A DNA stretch of 64,000 nt from NCBI RefSeq assembly GCF_902833045.1, contig NZ_CADFDU010000001.1, positions 885,927 to 949,926 on the forward strand, written 5' to 3'. This DNA is from Burkholderia sp. BCC0322 (GTDB taxonomy: Bacteria > Pseudomonadota > Gammaproteobacteria > Burkholderiales > Burkholderiaceae). Below the pieces are notes generated by a model. The model saw only the letters and a program-made list of their open reading frames with translations, made no database searches and had not been told where the DNA came from. Within the stretch, counting starts at the first letter, position 1, and every line of letters begins with the position of its first letter. This document shows, piece by piece, positions 11,699-54,329 of this stretch. Position numbers and translations under genes: made by a program.

Positions 11699-11712
11699 CA
11701 GTGTGTCTCCTG

Positions 11713-11960
11713 TCGACCCGAGTTAGCGCTTTAGCGCTTACTCGGGTCCCATGCCTTGTGCGGTCGACCCGAGTTGGCGCTTTAGCGCTTGCTCGGGTCC
11801 CATGCCTTGTGCGGTCGACCCGAGTTGGCGCTTGAGCGCTTGCTCGGGTCCCATGCCTTGTGCGGTCGATCCGAGTTGGCGCTTGAGCGCTTGCTCGGGT
11901 CCCATGCCTTGTGCGGTCGATCCGAGCTGGCGCTTGAGCGCCTATTCGAGTCCCATGCTT
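11713..11960. repeat. Five tandem 51-bp repeats, each a near-perfect 30-bp palindrome
   Basis: Units begin at 11713, 11764, 11815, 11866 and 11917. Each contains CCCGAGTTRGCGCT-TT-AGCGCTTRCTCGGG (two half motifs), so every copy can fold into a long hairpin, followed by a conserved spacer TCCCATGCCTTGTGCGG. The last copy is decayed. The period of 51 is a multiple of three, so both strands stay open and encode 17-residue peptide repeats; I regard those as by-products. The block sits between ornithine cyclodeaminase and the divergent regulator, 15 bp upstream of the former. There are no unique spacers, so this is not CRISPR. Confidence 0.9.
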
Positions 11961-41444: not shown

Positions 41445-41828
41445 ATGCCGTTCATCTGCGAAAACGTTGAATGCCGTGCCGTGCTGGCTCGCGGGCAGGT
41501 CAGGCCCCGTCAGGAGGACGCGGGGTGGTGCTTCTACTGCCCGGACTGCAACACCAGGAACGAGCTGATGCATGTCGACATGGTCGGCGGCGCGGTCGAG
41601 CTGATTCAGCCGGAGCGAGCGAGCCCTCCGCACAAGGTGGTTGCAACGGCCCGACCGCTGGAAGATGGCAGGTACGCGGCGCAGTTGAGCGTTCAGCGGG
41701 CGCTCACCGTGAAGGGAACGTATGCGGCTGAAGAACACTGGGATCAGCTCGGTGTATTCGGCGACGCGCAAGAGGCCGTCGAGCACGCGAGGTCTTTTGC
41801 AACCGACCTGTTGCAGCGAGCGGCGTAG
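41445..41828 (+). CDS. Hypothetical protein with N-terminal zinc-ribbon-like cysteines
   Basis: A 127-residue protein. Cysteines at CENVEC (residues 5-10) and CFYCPDC (residues 29-35) could form a zinc ribbon. The C-terminal half is soluble with no recognised domain. ATG at 41445. A strong hairpin terminator follows at 41852. Confidence 0.65.
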   Translation: MPFICENVECRAVLARGQVRPRQEDAGWCFYCPDCNTRNELMHVDMVGGAVELIQPERASPPHKVVATARPLEDGRYAAQLSVQRALTVKGTYAAEEHWDQLGVFGDAQEAVEHARSFATDLLQRAA

Positions 41829-47540: not shown

Positions 47541-48752
47541 TCAGGCTTCGCTGAACCGCGCCAGCAACGCCGCGAACCGCGTGTCATCAGGAAACACCTT
47601 CACTTCATACCGCACCGGCTGATGCCCGGTGGCCGTCATCAGGTCGCCGCACGTGTGCAGCAGCTCGGCCATCGGCACGTAGGCGGACTGCCCCGTCGAC
47701 GCGCGATGGAGCGCGACGATGTCCGTCTCGGGCAGCAGCGTATGCACGCCGTCGCTCCACACGCCGACGCTGAACAGGCTGCCGTCCTGGCGCTTGTACA
47801 CCGAGTAGGTCGCCACGAAGATGTCGGTGCCGTCGCGTTCGTGCGTGTCGTTGAGCAGCATCCGCTGATCCTGGTAGTCGCCCGCGCGCTCGCCGATGCG
47901 CAGCGCGTGCAGCTTCGCTTCGAGCCCTTCCGGCACGAAGCGCCGCCAGGCGGTGCCGTCCCAGCGCAGCATCAGCGGCGGCAGCGGGCGCGGCTGCGCC
48001 TGCGCCTGTTCGGCGAGGTCGACCATCGCCGCGAGCCCGGCCGGATTGCGATCGCCGGTGAGCAGCAGCACCGCGCGGTTCGGCGCCATCACGACCGGCG
48101 CGCCGGCGATCGGCTGACGGTGGAGCAGGTCGGTGAGCAGCAGCCGCGCTGCGTCGTAGGAATCGTCGAATTGCGACAGGAAGACCCCGTTCGGCAGCGC
48201 GGCCCACGGCTTCGACGATTCGGCCCGCAGGTTGTCGATCGCGATGTCGCAGGCTTCGTCGAACGACACGCCCCATTGGTCGAGCGTCGCGGTCGGCAGG
48301 CGCGCGATGTTGAACTCGCCGTCGTACGCGATGCCGATCTCGATGTTCTCGCACAGCGGCCGGAACGCGAGCGCCGTGATGCCGGGCCGCCCGGCCAGTT
48401 GCAGCTCGGCCACGCAGCGCTCGGTCGCGCTGCGGATCACGGGGCGCAGCTTCGCGCGCGCCACGGCGAAATCCTTGGGGATTTCGTGTTGCATCATCGC
48501 GCTCGCCTGCCGCTTCAGCACGGTGTCCCGCTCGGACGGCTTCGCGGCCGCGTAGTCGCGGAACAGGTTGTGCAGGTTGATGATGTTCGACGGGGCATCC
48601 GACTGGACGAGACAGCCCTTCTCGTCCTCGTGGCGCCAGGTGCGTGTGTCGCCCGACGCGCGCAGCGCGGCGATCAGGCGTTCGGCGAAGGCCTGCGGGG
48701 TCGGCGGTTTGCCGAAACGGTCGCGCAGGCGCGTGACGAGATTGGCAAGCAT
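47541..48752 (-). CDS. DUF1444-family protein
   Basis: A 403-residue soluble protein starting MLANLVTRLRDRFGKPPTPQ; the open frame continues far upstream through the GGCAAG repeat tract, but the family starts here. Landmarks include FAVARAKLRPVIRSATE and YDGEFNIARLPTATLDQWGV. The function of the family is unknown. No ribosome site stands out. The promoter must lie in the region that contains the hexanucleotide repeat, shared with the divergent DUF3348 operon. Confidence 0.8.
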   Translation of the reverse strand: MLANLVTRLRDRFGKPPTPQAFAERLIAALRASGDTRTWRHEDEKGCLVQSDAPSNIINLHNLFRDYAAAKPSERDTVLKRQASAMMQHEIPKDFAVARAKLRPVIRSATERCVAELQLAGRPGITALAFRPLCENIEIGIAYDGEFNIARLPTATLDQWGVSFDEACDIAIDNLRAESSKPWAALPNGVFLSQFDDSYDAARLLLTDLLHRQPIAGAPVVMAPNRAVLLLTGDRNPAGLAAMVDLAEQAQAQPRPLPPLMLRWDGTAWRRFVPEGLEAKLHALRIGERAGDYQDQRMLLNDTHERDGTDIFVATYSVYKRQDGSLFSVGVWSDGVHTLLPETDIVALHRASTGQSAYVPMAELLHTCGDLMTATGHQPVRYEVKVFPDDTRFAALLARFSEA

Positions 48753-49205
48753 CGTGTGCGGTCGGGCCGGGCCCGTCTGTTGTCGTCGTGGGTCGGTGGC
48801 GCCCGGTCTCGGCGGCGCAGCCCGCGGCCGGCACGCGTGGCTCGACGGGTGCTGCGATGGTAGCGCAACGCGACAGGTATCGTCGGACGATATTCGAAAC
48901 CTGCTGGCGACACGGCTGAAGGCAAGGACGAGGGCAAGGGCAAGGACGAGGGCAAGGGCAAGGGCAAGGGCAAGGGCAAGGGCAAGGGCAAGGACGAGGG
49001 CAAGGGCAAGGGCAAGGGCAAGGGCAAGGGCAAGGGCAAGGGCGCGGCGGGACCGTCGCCGCAGCAGTCCCCGGTCGCCCGCCAGGCCTTGCGCGGCGGG
49101 CGTTCGCGTGTGCCGCATGCCGCGCCGAACGGCGCCACCTCCCCGATTCTGGCGGCCGACGTCCCGGCGACGTGTAAACTGCTGCCTTTTTTGACGGTTT
49201 GCAGC
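48753..49205. other. Divergent promoter region, 453 bp
   Basis: Contains the 120-bp hexanucleotide repeat and otherwise no recognised gene. Long frames on both strands run through the repeat but carry only low-complexity sequence. Near the DUF3348 start, TGTAAACTGCTGCCTTTTTT is promoter-like. Confidence 0.45.
48921..49040. repeat. Hexanucleotide microsatellite, 20 units of GGCAAG/GACGAG
   Basis: Twenty consecutive 6-bp units, 17 GGCAAG and 3 GACGAG at positions 2, 5 and 13 of the array. The tract is purine-rich on the plus strand, codes Gly-Lys in one frame and Leu-Pro in a reverse frame, and lies between the starts of the DUF1444 gene and the DUF3348 operon. Such arrays change length by slippage. 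Confidence 0.95.
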
Positions 49206-49985
49206 ATGGTGCAAGCATCTCCGCGCCCGGCGCTGAGCGGCCCGGCGCTCGTCCGGCTGCTCGCGCGCCTGGCTGATGCCGACGTCGCGGAATCCCGGCA
49301 GACGCTGTCCGACCGGCTGAGCCAGTGGCTCGGCTGGACCGACGCGATCACGTTGTCGTCCGCGCTGAACGCGAGCCCGCCCGGCGTCGCGGCCGGCGTG
49401 CGCGGCTACGACGCGGAGCGCGACTGCGCACGTGTGCGCCACGAGCTCGCGCAGGCGATCACGGCTACCAACCGGCCGCGAGCACGGCGCCGGCCCGGCG
49501 ATCCGCCGCCGCCGGCCGCCGACACGGCCGATTTCGCGGATTTCCGCCAGCGTTATCTGTCCCTGCAGCAGGACATGGAAACGGCGATCGGCCAGCTGCG
49601 CGGCCGCCTGCGGGTCGCGGTCGCCGCGCGCTCGGCCGGGATGGCGCGGCTCGCGACGCTCGACGCGATCATGGAGCGCGTGCTCGGCGCGCGCGAGCGC
49701 AGCCTGCTGTCGGCCATCCCCGCGCTGCTCGCCACGCGTTTCGGGCGGCTGCGCGACGCGGAGCGGCAGGCGCTGGCAGACGCCGAATCCGCGGCCGCGG
49801 CCACGGCCACAGCCGCCCCGGCCGATGACGGCGCGGTGGTGGCCGAGGGCGCGGCCGTCGCGGCGATCGTGCCCGGCGCATGGCTCGATACGTTTCGCGA
49901 CGAGATGCAAGGCATCCTGCTTGCCGAACTCGAAGTCCGGTTTCAAACGGTAGACGGGCTGCTCGCGGCCCTTCGCACCAGCTAA
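49206..49985 (+). CDS. DUF3348 domain protein
   Basis: A 259-residue soluble protein. The N-terminus is SGPALVRLLARLADADVAES, and the middle has a coiled region, DFADFRQRYLSLQQDMETAI. ATG at 49206 is preferred over the frame that continues upstream. It is first in the operon with DUF802, OmpA/MotB-like and DUF2894 genes, 10 bp before DUF802. The function is unknown; conserved gene order suggests a cytoplasmic accessory to the membrane complex. Confidence 0.82.
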   Translation: MVQASPRPALSGPALVRLLARLADADVAESRQTLSDRLSQWLGWTDAITLSSALNASPPGVAAGVRGYDAERDCARVRHELAQAITATNRPRARRRPGDPPPPAADTADFADFRQRYLSLQQDMETAIGQLRGRLRVAVAARSAGMARLATLDAIMERVLGARERSLLSAIPALLATRFGRLRDAERQALADAESAAAATATAAPADDGAVVAEGAAVAAIVPGAWLDTFRDEMQGILLAELEVRFQTVDGLLAALRTS

Positions 49986-49995
49986 TCAACACGCT

Positions 49996-52900
49996 ATGTC
50001 CAGAATTCGCCTTGATCTCGTTGTCTTCGTCGTCGGTCTGCTCGCTGTGGGCTGGATCGGCGTCGGCTATGTCGCGTCGAACCCGCTGGCGTCGGCCGTT
50101 ACGCTGCTGATCGCCGCGTGCTACGTCGCCGGCGCGTGGGAACTGCTGCGCTACCGGCAGGCCACCGCCACGCTGTCGCGCGCGGTCGCCGGCTTGACCG
50201 AGCCGCCCGCGAAGCTCGACGCGTGGCTCGACACGCTGCACCCGGGCCTGCGCGGCGCCGTGCGCGCGCGGGTCGAAGGCGCGCGCGTCGCGCTGCCGGG
50301 CCCGTCGCTCACGCCTTACCTCGTCGGGCTGCTCGTGCTGCTCGGCATGCTCGGCACGCTGCTCGGGATGGTCGTCACGCTGAAGGGCACCGGCGCCGCG
50401 CTCGAAAGCGCGACCGATCTCGACGCGATCCGCGCGTCGTTGATCGCGCCGGTGAAGGGTCTCGGGTTCGCGTTCGGCACGTCGATCGCCGGCGTCGCGA
50501 CGTCGGCGATGCTCGGGCTGCTGTCCGCGCTCGCGCGCCGCGAGCGGATCGATGCGGCCCAGCAGCTCGACGCGAAGATCGCGACGACGTTGCGCGTGCA
50601 TTCTTCCGCGCACCAGCGCGACGAGTCGTTCCGGCTGCTGCAGCGCCAGGCCGACGTGATGCCGGCGCTGGTCGACCGGTTGCAGACGATGATGACGACG
50701 CTCGAGGCACGCAGCGTCGCGCTGCACGATCGCCAGATCGAAAGCCAGCAGGCGTTTTTCGACCGAACCGAGCGCGCGTATGCGGGCCTCGCGTCGAATG
50801 TCGGCGATGCGCTGAAGGAAAGCGCCGCCGAAAGCGCGCGCGTGGCCGGCGCCGCGCTGCAGCCGGTCGTCGCCGCGACGATGACGGGGCTCGCGCAGGA
50901 GATGGCCGCGCTGCGCGATACCGTGACGGGTGCCGTGCAGCGTCAGCTCGACGGGCTGACGGACGGCTTCGAGAAGACCACCGGCAACGTGACGGCCGTC
51001 TGGAACCGCGCGCTCGACGAACAGCGTCGCGCGGGCGACGCCGTCGCGCAGCAACTGCAGACGACGCTCGGCCAGTTCACCGACACGTTCGCGCAGCGTT
51101 CGACGGATCTGCTCGACGGCGTGGCGACGCGCCTCGAATCGACGGAAAGCCGCCTGTCGGACGCATGGCGCGATGCGCTGTCGCGCCAGGAGCAGGTCGG
51201 CGAGACGCTGGCCGCGCAGCATGCGCGCGCGCTGGGCGAGGCCGCCGCGACGTTCGAGCGCCATTCGGGCGCGACGCTCGCCGCGATGCGCGAGTCGCAC
51301 GCGGGGCTGCAGACCGACCTGGCGGCGCGCGACGAACAGCGTCTTGCCGCGTGGAACGATTCGCTGGCCGCGATGGCCGCGAAGCTCGGCGACGAATGGC
51401 AGCGCGCGGGCGTGCACAGTGCCGGCCGTCAGCAGGAAATCTGCGACGCGCTCGCACAAACGACGCGCGACCTCGCCATGCAGGCGTCGACGTTCGAACA
51501 ACGCTCGAACGAACTGCTGTCGACGATTCGCGATTCGCACACGGGGCTGCAGACGCAACTGGCGGCGCGTGACGAAGCACGCCTGTCGGCCTGGAACGCC
51601 TCGCTGGCCGAGATGGCCGCGAAGCTCGGCGACGAATGGCAGCGCGCGGGCGTGCACAGCGCGGGCCGCCAGCAGGAAATCTGCGATGCACTCGCACAAA
51701 CGACGCGTGACCTCGCCACGCAGGCGTCGACGTTCGAACAACGCTCGAACGAACTGCTGTCGACGATCCGCGATTCGCACACGGGGCTGCAGACGCAACT
51801 CGCCGCACGCGACGAACAGCGCCTGTCCGCGTGGAACGACTCGCTGGCGGCAATGGCCGCGAAGCTCGGCGACGAATGGCAGCGCGCGGGCGTGCATAGT
51901 GCGGGCCGTCAGCAGGAAATCTGCGATGCGCTCGCACAAACGACGCGCGATCTGACCACGCAGGCGTCGACGTTCGAACAACGCTCGAACGAACTGCTGT
52001 CGACGATCCGCGATTCGCATGTCGGCTTGCAGACGCAACTCGCCGCGCGTGACGAAGCACGCCTCACCGCATGGAGCGAGTCGCTGGCCGCGATGGCCGC
52101 GAAGCTCGGTGACGAATGGCAGCGCGCGGGCGTGCATAGCGCGGGCCGCCAGCAGGAAATCTGCGATGCACTCGCACAAACGACGCGTGACCTCGCCACG
52201 CAGGCGTCGACGTTCGAACAACGCTCGAACGAATTGCTGTCGACGATCCGCGATTCGCACACGGGCCTGCAGACGCAACTCGCCGCGCGTGACGAAGCAC
52301 GCCTCGCCGCATGGAACGACTCGCTCGCCGCGATGGCGGCCGCGCTGCGTGACGAATGGGCGCAAATGAGCGCGCAGGCCGCGACGCGCCAGCAGGACAT
52401 CTGCGACACGCTGGCCCGCACCGCGAACGACATCACCGCGCAGGCGCAGGTGCATGCGAGCGACACGATCAACGAGATCGCGCGCCTCGTGCAGGCTGCA
52501 TCGGAGGCGCCGAAGGCCGCGGCCGACGTCGTCGCCGAGCTGCGCCAGCGCCTGTCCGACAGCCTGGTGCACGATACCGCGATGCTTGAGGAACGCAGCC
52601 GCCTGCTCGCGACGCTCGAAACGCTGCTCGGTGCGGTCAACCACGCGTCGACCGAACAGCGCACCGCGATCGACGCACTCGTCAGCACGTCGGCGGACCT
52701 GCTCGACCGCGTCGGCGCGCGCTTCAACGACACCGTCGATGCCGAGACGCGCAAGCTCGACTCGGTGGCCGCACAGGTCACGGCAGGCGCTGTCGAGGTC
52801 GCGAGCCTCGGCGATGCGTTCGGGATGGCCGTGCAGGTATTCGGCGAGTCGAACGACAAGCTGCTGACCCATCTGCAACGCATCGAGGCCGCGCTCGAGA

Positions 52901-53043
52901 AATCGCTCGCGCGCAGCGACGAGCAGCTCGAGTATTACGTCGCGCAGGCGCGCGAGGTGATCGACCTGAGCATGATGTCGCAGAAGCAGATCGTCGAAGA
53001 CCTGCAGCAGCTCGCCGGCCGGCGGGCGAGCGTCGGAGCGTAA
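49996..53043 (+). CDS. DUF802 protein, MotA/TolQ/ZorA-like channel with long coiled-coil tail
   Basis: A 1015-residue protein. Four hydrophobic segments are at about residues 10-28, 32-52, 106-128 and 150-175. The third and fourth resemble MotA/TolQ/ExbB proton-channel helices: LLVLLGMLGTLLGMVVTL, then after IRASLIAPVKGLGFAFGTSI a further helix. From about residue 190 to the end it is an Ala/Gln/Arg-rich helical coiled coil, including four near-identical 80-residue repeats (residues 456-775). No stop or frame break. Paired with the MotB-like gene 4 bp downstream. Its likely role is the stator-like half of an inner-membrane ion-driven complex with a long cytoplasmic tail. Confidence 0.8.
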   Translation: MSRIRLDLVVFVVGLLAVGWIGVGYVASNPLASAVTLLIAACYVAGAWELLRYRQATATLSRAVAGLTEPPAKLDAWLDTLHPGLRGAVRARVEGARVALPGPSLTPYLVGLLVLLGMLGTLLGMVVTLKGTGAALESATDLDAIRASLIAPVKGLGFAFGTSIAGVATSAMLGLLSALARRERIDAAQQLDAKIATTLRVHSSAHQRDESFRLLQRQADVMPALVDRLQTMMTTLEARSVALHDRQIESQQAFFDRTERAYAGLASNVGDALKESAAESARVAGAALQPVVAATMTGLAQEMAALRDTVTGAVQRQLDGLTDGFEKTTGNVTAVWNRALDEQRRAGDAVAQQLQTTLGQFTDTFAQRSTDLLDGVATRLESTESRLSDAWRDALSRQEQVGETLAAQHARALGEAAATFERHSGATLAAMRESHAGLQTDLAARDEQRLAAWNDSLAAMAAKLGDEWQRAGVHSAGRQQEICDALAQTTRDLAMQASTFEQRSNELLSTIRDSHTGLQTQLAARDEARLSAWNASLAEMAAKLGDEWQRAGVHSAGRQQEICDALAQTTRDLATQASTFEQRSNELLSTIRDSHTGLQTQLAARDEQRLSAWNDSLAAMAAKLGDEWQRAGVHSAGRQQEICDALAQTTRDLTTQASTFEQRSNELLSTIRDSHVGLQTQLAARDEARLTAWSESLAAMAAKLGDEWQRAGVHSAGRQQEICDALAQTTRDLATQASTFEQRSNELLSTIRDSHTGLQTQLAARDEARLAAWNDSLAAMAAALRDEWAQMSAQAATRQQDICDTLARTANDITAQAQVHASDTINEIARLVQAASEAPKAAADVVAELRQRLSDSLVHDTAMLEERSRLLATLETLLGAVNHASTEQRTAIDALVSTSADLLDRVGARFNDTVDAETRKLDSVAAQVTAGAVEVASLGDAFGMAVQVFGESNDKLLTHLQRIEAALEKSLARSDEQLEYYVAQAREVIDLSMMSQKQIVEDLQQLAGRRASVGA
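51361..52320 (+). repeat. Four tandem 240-bp repeats inside the DUF802 gene
   Basis: Units start at 51361, 51601, 51841 and 52081, with a degenerate fifth from 52321 and a partial one before. Each encodes 80 residues beginning SLAAMAAKLGDEWQRAGVHS and containing GRQQEICDALAQTTRDLA and STFEQRSNELLSTIRDSH. Nucleotide identity between units is very high, so the copies are recent or homogenised. Confidence 0.95.
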
Positions 53044-53046
53044 CGC

Positions 53047-53691
53047 ATGCATGACGAAATCGACGGCGGCGCGTCCTCCGCGCCGGTGTGGCCCGCGTTC
53101 GCCGACCTGATGTCGGTGCTGCTCGGCGCGTTCGTGCTGATCCTCGTCGGCGTGATCGGCATGCAGCTTCAGCTCACGTCGAAGCTCGAGGAAGCCGTGC
53201 GCGCGCGGCAGCTCGAAGCGCAGCAGCGCAAGTCGCTCGAGCAGGCGCTCGCCGGGCCGCTCGCGGCTGGCCGCGTGACGTTCGTGAACGGCCGCATCGG
53301 CATCAGCGGCAATGTGCTGTTTGCGCTGAACTCGGACCAGTTGCAGCCCGCGGGCCGCGACCTGCTGAAGACGCTGGCCGCGCCGCTGGGCGCTTACCTG
53401 AAGACGCGCGACGAGATCCTGATGGTCAGTGGCTTCGCCGACGACCAGCAGGTGCATGCGGGCAACCGCCTGTTCGCGGACAACTGGGAGCTGTCGGCCA
53501 AGCGCGCGTTGACGGTCACGCGTGCGCTGATCGACGCCGGCGTACCGGCGTCGTCGGTGTTCGCGGCCGCGTTCGGTTCCGAGCAGCCGGTCAGCTCGAA
53601 TGCGGACGACGAAGGCCGCGCGAAGAACCGCCGCGTGGAGATCGCGCCGGTGCCGCGCAAGTCCGCGTCGAACGGAGGGAAGGCGCAGTGA
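53047..53691 (+). CDS. OmpA/MotB-like (ZorB-like) peptidoglycan-binding protein
   Basis: A 214-residue protein with one transmembrane helix (residues 17-40) in WPAFADLMSVLLGAFVLILV. Asp20 lies at the start of the helix, as in the proton-binding Asp of MotB. A short coiled linker follows, and the C-terminal OmpA peptidoglycan-binding domain includes NWELSAKRALTVTRALIDAG and DEGRAKNRRVEIAP. It is the expected partner of the DUF802 channel protein, anchoring it to the cell wall. It overlaps the next gene by 4 nt. Confidence 0.85.
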   Translation: MHDEIDGGASSAPVWPAFADLMSVLLGAFVLILVGVIGMQLQLTSKLEEAVRARQLEAQQRKSLEQALAGPLAAGRVTFVNGRIGISGNVLFALNSDQLQPAGRDLLKTLAAPLGAYLKTRDEILMVSGFADDQQVHAGNRLFADNWELSAKRALTVTRALIDAGVPASSVFAAAFGSEQPVSSNADDEGRAKNRRVEIAPVPRKSASNGGKAQ

Positions 53692-54329
53692 CCGGTGACG
53701 CGACACACGTCCGAGCGATGCTCGACGCATGGCGCGAGCAGGGTGCCGACCGGCTCGATCCGGTGCGCTTTCACCGGATCGACGCGCTCGAACGGCGTGC
53801 GGCCGCGCTCGAAGGCGACGCACGCGCGTTGCTCGACGCGCGTCTGGCGACGTTGCTCGAAGGCTTCGCGGAAGTTGTCGCGCGCGCCGATGAAACGGCA
53901 GCCGCGAGCGGCGCGGCGGATGCGCCCGCGCGCGGCGCGCTGGCGGAACTCGTCGAGCGGCTCGCGCGCGGCGCGCTGGCGGAACTCGTCGAGCGGCTCG
54001 CGCGCGACGCGCAGGCCGACCGGCGCGGGCTCGATCCCGAACTGGTCGACTACTTCCGCTCGCTGTGGTCGAAAGTCCGCACGGAACAGCAGTACCGTCA
54101 GTCGCTCGACCAGGTTCCGCGCAACGCGGGGCCGCTCAATTCGAACAGTCTCGTGCACCGGTCGCTCGCGACGATGCGCGAGTTGTCGCCGGCTTATCTG
54201 CAGCAGTTCCTGTCGTATGTCGACGCGCTCGCGTGGCTCGAGGATCTCGCCGGCGGCGGCGCGCAGCCCGAGAAGGAAGCGCCGCGCGCGAAGGCGGTGA
54301 AGAAGGTCGCGCGGAGCAGGAGCCGCTAG
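53688..54329 (+). CDS. DUF2894 domain protein
   Basis: A 213-residue cytoplasmic protein starting GTG at 53688 (GTGA overlap with the OmpA gene). The N-terminal helix is MLDAWREQGADRLDPVRFHR and the C-terminal core is DYFRSLWSKVRTEQQYRQSL. An in-frame duplication RGALAELVERLA occurs twice in tandem (residues about 81-104). It ends in a basic tail. Function unknown; last gene of the four-gene operon. Confidence 0.82.
   Translation: MTGDATHVRAMLDAWREQGADRLDPVRFHRIDALERRAAALEGDARALLDARLATLLEGFAEVVARADETAAASGAADAPARGALAELVERLARGALAELVERLARDAQADRRGLDPELVDYFRSLWSKVRTEQQYRQSLDQVPRNAGPLNSNSLVHRSLATMRELSPAYLQQFLSYVDALAWLEDLAGGGAQPEKEAPRAKAVKKVARSRSR

Follow-up and report, generated by a model that had tools for sequence, protein, structure and literature searches.

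The Zorya anti-phage systems are the closest described relatives of the locus analysed here. In types I and II an assembly of five ZorA and two ZorB subunits (ZorA5:ZorB2) has been solved, and both types are reported to need the ZorB aspartate, peptidoglycan binding and the ZorA tail (PMC11890865). A third type, a four-gene set without ZorC, ZorD or ZorE, was named in 2021 by Payne et al. from 6,401 loci, and the type III operon of Stenotrophomonas nitritireducens is described as making at least one phage plaque less well in Escherichia coli (PMC8565338). The stretch studied in this work, hereafter the window, consists of 64,000 nucleotides from Burkholderia sp. BCC0322 (assembly GCF_902833045.1, contig NZ_CADFDU010000001.1, positions 885,927 to 949,926), and carries four adjacent genes that we call zorG, zorA, zorB and zorF. 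These names follow the PADLOC-DB 2.0.0 profiles, in which zorG is DUF3348 and zorF is DUF2894; they are swapped in the publications, where DUF3348 is ZorF and DUF2894 is ZorG (PMC8565338, PMC11890865). Judged by its sequence, this is a Zorya type III operon with all four genes present, hence a system already named. The reading that we favour, and to which we give a probability of about 0.65, is that it encodes an ion-driven ZorA/ZorB anti-phage motor with a rod, a tip and the two partners ZorF and ZorG.

Results

A complete Zorya type III operon

All four proteins match the type III profiles of PADLOC-DB (Table 1). The genes are tightly packed, with gaps of 10 bp between zorG and zorA and of 3 bp between zorA and zorB, and a 4-bp overlap of zorB with zorF, the GTG start of which overlaps the zorB stop. 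The coordinates and Pfam families confirm the DUF3348-DUF802-OmpA-DUF2894 operon proposed in an initial annotation made from the sequence alone. Because a four-gene set lacking ZorC, ZorD and ZorE has already been named Zorya type III, nothing beyond Zorya is needed, and a new system was ruled out since every gene matches a type III profile. The initial annotation had also remarked on the lack of ZorC-, ZorD- or ZorE-like proteins, and indeed the 10 neighbour proteins tested between positions 41448 and 57475, a region where some open reading frames lay outside the test, gave no PADLOC match at all; a defence island round the operon was rejected on the same result.

The four genes stay together. 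They are all present in 70 of the 74 loci fetched round zorB matches, the remaining 4 being cut by contig ends, and the order G-A-B-F is found in 70/70, one of which has a split zorB. In 40 further loci from 20 genera, selected via DUF2894 matches so that the presence of zorF is there by selection, the genes lie on one strand in the same order without exception (40/40). Compared with 10 close relatives, the median ratio of non-synonymous to synonymous substitution is 0.07 for ZorA residues 1-320, 0.10 for ZorB, 0.24 for ZorG and 0.23 for ZorF; therefore all four genes are under purifying selection, which is strongest on the motor. The closest genome compared has 21% of the window's 31-letter words in common.

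Table 1. Positions in the window of the operon genes and of the features discussed in the text
Feature	Position	Strand	Evidence
zorG (DUF3348), 259 amino acids, predicted helical	49206..49985	+	Pfam PF11828 1.2e-85; PADLOC ZorG3 3.9e-94
zorA (DUF802), 1015 amino acids: membrane motor domain, rod, tip	49996..53043	+	Pfam 2.3e-26; PADLOC ZorA3 E=0, 1573 bits
codon of ZorA Thr121 in the TM3 motif LGMLGT, probably equivalent to the ion-ring Ser/Thr	50356..50358	+	invariant in 31/31
codons of ZorA Thr162-Ser163 (TM4, FGTS)	50479..50484	+	invariant in 31/31
tandem array in the ZorA rod, unit of 240 bp (80 residues)	51284..52337	+	Tandem Repeats Finder, 4.4 copies, 90% matches
ZorA tip, last 65 residues, RSDEQLxYYVAQAREVIDLS	52846..53040	+	mean pairwise identity 0.67 (40 representatives)
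zorB, 214 amino acids: MotB-like helix and OmpA peptidoglycan-binding domain	53047..53691	+	PF00691 2.5e-18; PADLOC ZorB3 7.3e-114
codon of ZorB Asp20, presumed ion-binding residue	53104..53106	+	invariant in 31/31 aligned relatives
zorF (DUF2894), 213 amino acids, GTG start	53688..54329	+	PF11445 1.9e-57; PADLOC ZorF3 8.1e-83
GGCAAG hexamer array, 20.5 copies, between a divergent DUF1444-like gene and zorG	48921..49043	.	tandem-repeat scan

Residues of the predicted motor

The initial annotation read the operon as encoding a ZorA/ZorB-type ion-driven motor, and named, among the points on which this reading could fail, the conservation of ZorB Asp20 and the alignment of the DUF802 helices with the third and fourth transmembrane helices (TM3-TM4) of the MotA/TolQ-like channels. 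These two held. Asp20, in the stretch WPAFADLMSVLL, is invariant among the 31 relatives aligned, and the motif W..F.DLM is present in 114 of 115 ZorB, that of the window included; the one ZorB without it is that of genome G026, where zorB is split by a frame change. At this locus (L104), in a three-contig genome, zorB lies in two frames, which reflects either a real lesion or a sequencing error. Asp20 aligns with FSDLM/YADLM of the solved type I ZorB 8vvn/8qyd, in weak matches (E 0.022/0.05 with a 72-residue query). The peptidoglycan-binding motif of the OmpA domain, DNxELSxxRAxxV, is found in 109 of the 115.

In ZorA, sequence and homology point to the four hydrophobic helices of the initial annotation. 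The FGTS motif of TM4 is present in all 112 ZorA compared and the LGMLGT motif of TM3 in 108; Thr121 aligns with GVIGT of type I ZorA (8vvn chain C) in a weak match (E 0.74). In hhalign, residues 112-221, which cover TM3-TM4, matched a profile of four ZorA1-like proteins with a probability of 96.2% (E 2.7e-9), these four scoring below the cut-off of the ZorA_1 model, which was passed in 0 of the 185 genomes searched; a ZorG control gave 0.1%. With PF01618 (MotA_ExbB) the window ZorA reaches 10.3 bits for a gathering cut-off of 22.9, and 8 of 31 relatives give weak matches (E up to 1, best 0.012). A distant homology of ZorA TM3-TM4 to ZorA1-like channels is thus supported at the level of profiles, and together the type III PADLOC profiles and the conserved residues support the reading of ZorA and ZorB as a putative motor.

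A variable rod between a conserved motor and a conserved tip

ZorA extends into a tail of about 800 residues. Forty representatives, less than 85% identical over residues 1-205, have a mean pairwise identity of 0.76 in TM3-TM4, which drops to 0.52, 0.39 and 0.30 along the rod and climbs back through 0.49 and 0.58 to 0.67 in the last 65 residues. ZorA thus has a variable rod that links two conserved ends, the motor and the tip. The tip sequence was matched once per genome in all 20 genomes searched, which were picked as Zorya III carriers. ZorA of 690-702 residues make up 17 of the 112 proteins and recur across genera, families and orders; 15 of these short forms have no repeat over the threshold, and two (from G364 and G074) have one. 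Most longer ZorA carry tandem units of a size that varies between lineages (80 residues in the clade of the window and 22, 29, 51, 62, 69, 73, 80, 87, 94, 98 or 131 elsewhere); some, for example those of G942 and G797, have no repeat over the threshold. Between species of the window's clade, ZorA length varies in steps of 80 residues, complete proteins (n=49) being of 1015, 935, 855 and 775 residues in 35, 9, 4 and 1 cases, respectively; in assemblies of at most 7 contigs (n=22) the numbers are 17, 4, 1 and 0. Rod copy number changes often, about as in shuffled labels: 12 parsimony steps were counted over 39 genomes, and shuffling gave a mean of 13.1 and a minimum of 10.

The unit lengths themselves are not arbitrary with respect to an alpha helix. 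With a period of 3.635 residues per turn, all 11 clear unit lengths fall near whole numbers of turns (mean cosine 0.93), a value reached by 0 of 20,000 random sets, the period being fitted between 3.58 and 3.675 in this test. Three weak unit lengths (33, 55 and 95 residues, identity 0.45-0.48) were excluded from this strict test, and a second one that included them also gave 0/20,000. Helix periodicity can by itself pull the offsets of weak repeats towards whole turns, and the 8 strongest units taken alone give the same result (mean cosine 0.96; 0/20,000). When the period is fixed at 3.60 or 3.667 the signal is weak, as 1,198 and 648 of the 20,000 random sets, respectively, do as well. The 17 short rods show a hydrophobic period of 3.67-3.68 in their first part and of 3.58-3.59 in their second, so that 3.635 lies within the range set by the rods' own peaks. 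These observations suggest that the rod of Zorya III ZorA grows and shrinks in whole helix-turn steps, and the plain reading of units near whole turns is that they are kept only if the bundle stays in register.

ZorF and ZorG

An AlphaFold2 model of ZorG has eight helices and a mean predicted local distance difference test score (pLDDT) of 84.7; that of ZorF, made of helices and a low-confidence end, has a pLDDT of 75.7 and a predicted template modelling score of 0.45. Family and profile searches detected no enzyme domain in either protein, and no known relatives of the two could be identified. In ZorF, the core motif NAGPLN is present in 104 of 114 loci, and the last 25 residues form a basic tail with a median net charge of +6 (at least +4 in 104 of 114 loci), these counts being made on open frames whose start may be placed too early in some loci. 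The basic tail makes a contact of ZorF with DNA plausible. That ZorF and ZorG work at the ZorA tip is a proposal to which we give a little less than even odds. The middle of zorF also carries a 36-bp tandem repeat of 2.5 copies (positions 53927-54016).

Distribution and inheritance

Genomes were sampled at one per species, and the counts below apply across species. A strong ZorB match is present in 64 of 65 Burkholderia species, being missing in G015 and in two pieces in G026, and DUF3348 is likewise found in 64, being present in G015, partial in G045 and missing in G033, where the contig ends at that place. In total, zorB or zorG is found in all 65 species and both are found in 63, which suggests that Burkholderia carries Zorya III near-universally, as a fixed component. 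Of these 65 genomes, 28 have the HSDR_N family of type I restriction (27 above the cut-off) and 2 have Cas1. Beyond the genus, DUF2894 occurs within the family in 208 of 299 genomes and 11 of 25 genera, in 17 of 300 genomes sampled from the order (16 above the cut-off, with 5 belonging to the family) and in 8 of 369 sampled from the class. It occurs in 27 of 72,556 plasmid records, all of them Betaproteobacteria replicons of 0.37-3.5 Mb, 20 predicted to be non-mobilizable and 7 mobilizable. It is absent from all 50,697 phage records, and a search of viral contigs yielded no confirmed relative. The control genome of Corynebacterium glutamicum, an actinobacterium, gave a DUF2894 match over the cut-off. 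According to Mariano et al. (2025), the three Zorya subtypes are differentially distributed across strains, as is 'typical of anti-phage systems' (PMC11890865); type III in Burkholderia departs from this pattern, and we found no paper in the open-licence literature that reports near-universal type III in a genus.

Distances between ZorAB sequences follow those of rpoB, with a Spearman coefficient of 0.91 over 60 of the 68 eligible genomes, and of 0.71 within the window's clade. The genomic place of the operon is fixed only in this clade, where 46 of 52 loci have a gene of the LysE type as a neighbour (of the 6 without it, 4 end at a contig boundary) and 49 of 52 have an FMN reductase gene or the 56885 gene downstream. 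In the 22 other loci the operon adjoins none of the six neighbour genes that were searched for, and neighbours are common to small groups only. Eleven of the Burkholderia genomes compared lie outside the clade, and their ZorAB are roughly as close to other genera as to it: by ZorAB, 7 are nearer to other genera, 1 is equally distant and 3 are nearer to the window's clade, and by rpoB all 11 are nearer to it. Of 34 rpoB clades with good support, 12 are contradicted by ZorAB clades that are themselves well supported. The differing neighbours and the conflicts between clades mean that the operon has moved; it must have been relocated or replaced at least once, and its inheritance is not strictly vertical.

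Flanking DNA

Of 70 other loci, 8 have tandem arrays of 6, 7, 8 or 11-bp units in the 450 bp upstream of zorG, of sequences other than the GGCAAG array upstream of the operon, so that this region may vary in length; it is possibly a length-variable promoter region. Only one of 142 stretches of the window, the one with the GGCAAG array, scores as high. The divergent DUF1444-like gene (positions 47541-48752) scores 23.5 bits, just below the Pfam cut-off of 23.8; it adjoins the operon in 20 of 74 loci and has no PADLOC match. Elsewhere in the window, a 51-bp unit is repeated in tandem at positions 11712-11958, in 4.8 copies that hardly differ, and two adjacent Hsp70-like reading frames, read by eye, lie between 4754 and 9402 and start with IGIDLGTTHCAL and VGIDLGTSNTVV.

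Discussion

In the mechanism that we favour, five ZorA and two ZorB very likely make up a rotary motor of the inner membrane, driven by ions and anchored to peptidoglycan through ZorB, a 5:2 assembly in type III being presumed by analogy with the solved ones. An infecting phage would disturb the cell envelope, and ions flowing past ZorB Asp20 and the ring of ZorA Thr121, Thr162 and Ser163 would then turn or rearrange a cytoplasmic rod of five helices, which would act as a spacer of adjustable length; ZorF, with its basic tail, would be the best candidate for touching DNA. The ion flow, the anchoring to peptidoglycan and the need for a tail are taken from types I and II, as described in PMC11890865, and the layout of a shaft with a tip comes from the present data; for Zorya III we infer the mechanism as a whole. 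Zorya is said to localise to sites of phage injection, probably through envelope sensing (PMC13190303).

Several points weigh against this reading. In the open-licence literature we came across no evidence that a type III system of any Burkholderia defends against phage. When Burkholderia cenocepacia K56-2 is infected by phage, the change reported for its Zorya I and III operons is limited to the leading gene or two, and in the passage concerned the authors do not list Zorya among the systems that they call transcriptionally active (PMC12584637). The near-universality of the operon in the genus and its absence from phage records are unlike most defence systems. As for the proteins, fold comparisons with ZorG and ZorF turned up nothing telling, the hint of a DNA-binding KfrA_N domain in ZorF (E 2.2e-4, 22.3 bits) is under the cut-off of 26.1 and recurs in only 5 of 30 relatives, and hhalign of ZorA against single ZorA1-like sequences is uneven (0.9, 80.3, 34.8 and 91.2%).

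In a rival reading, the Burkholderia motor would be a resident envelope machine, devoted for instance to stress sensing or to the control of incoming DNA in general, with phage protection as a by-product or as one job among others. In favour of this view are the presence of zorB or zorG in 65/65 species compared with 28 for HsdR and 2 for Cas1, the 208 of 299 genomes of the family that carry DUF2894, the agreement of ZorAB with rpoB distances (0.91 in 60 genomes), and the restriction of the 27 plasmid records to large replicons together with the null results in phage records and viral contigs. Nevertheless, a resident machine accords poorly with the patchy occurrence in the wider samples (17/300 in the order and 8/369 in the class), with an operon that has moved, as its differing neighbours outside the window's clade and the conflict in 12 of 34 rpoB clades show, and with the report that a type III operon protects E. 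coli (PMC8565338). We regard it as unlikely, though as the most serious competitor of an anti-phage motor. A further proposition is that in Burkholderia and its sister genera Zorya III is a standing, core motor of envelope surveillance, whose modular rod is quickly lengthened or shortened in evolution, but by whole turns only, which would hold the bundle in register and the tip at a constant rotational phase with respect to the motor, rod length and phase being selected and a torque or an angle being passed to ZorF and ZorG at the tip. This proposition is tentative, and in our opinion rather more likely to be wrong than right.

A different possibility is a triggered ion leak, in which ZorF and ZorG would keep the motor shut and release it upon infection, killing the cell by depolarisation. 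A proton channel that causes abortive infection is cited as a Zorya proposal in PMC8565338, where ZorF and ZorG are suggested to be regulators, and the lack of a detectable enzyme domain in these two proteins fits such a role. However, a separate effector with nickase activity, ZorE, is reported for type II (PMC11890865), and by our own reasoning a rod of 800 residues with a conserved tip would be superfluous for a leak. We consider this explanation quite improbable. Most remote of all is an extra flagellar stator or an energiser of the TolQR/ExbBD type: the channel and the OmpA domain are homologous, but the NCBIfam MotB and MotD scores are far under their cut-offs, PF01618 is at 10.3 of 22.9 bits, and a set of four genes with DUF3348 and DUF2894 is fitted by the type III profiles at 1573 and 377 bits. 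On these sub-cut-off scores, taken for NCBIfam from the matches listed, the identification of the locus as a flagellar stator or a Tol/Ton system was rejected.

The survey bears on the effector step of Zorya III, of which we found no account in the open-licence literature, by narrowing the candidates to the near-invariant ZorA tip and to ZorF and ZorG. The whole-turn rule would allow a rod that acts as a shaft, for which phase matters, to be told from a tether, for which phase is irrelevant. If Zorya III is truly core in Burkholderia, software that scores it as an acquired defence system gives too high a 'defence load' for these genomes, and the question arises of what the motor does natively.

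Comparison with known systems

MotAB and PomAB stators share with this locus the aspartate-bearing MotB helix and the OmpA domain; they differ in that the present system has an 800-residue cytoplasmic rod and companion DUF genes and scores below the MotB model cut-offs. Among the matches listed, 25 of 40, the NCBIfam MotB and MotD models are all below cut-off (MotD at 82 of 283 bits), and the only NCBIfam model above it is PRK09040.1, 'hypothetical protein' (386 bits for a cut-off of 194). TolQR and ExbBD belong to the same ion-channel superfamily, as the weak PF01618 matches indicate, and differ in that ZorA has a rod and ZorB an OmpA domain; no Tol or Ton partner was seen among the window genes scanned. 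The likeness to Zorya I and II (PMC11890865; 8vvn, 8qyd) is closer and extends to ZorA TM3-TM4, the ZorB aspartate, the OmpA domain and the long ZorA tail, but here ZorF and ZorG are in the operon, and neither ZorC and ZorD (type I) nor ZorE (type II) is among the 4 operon proteins and the 10 neighbours. With Zorya type III (PMC8565338; PADLOC-DB) the genes, the profiles and the channel residues are the same, and nothing was found that distinguishes this locus from it. What our computational analysis adds to Zorya III is its genus-wide presence, a rod built of whole-turn units and a conserved tip.

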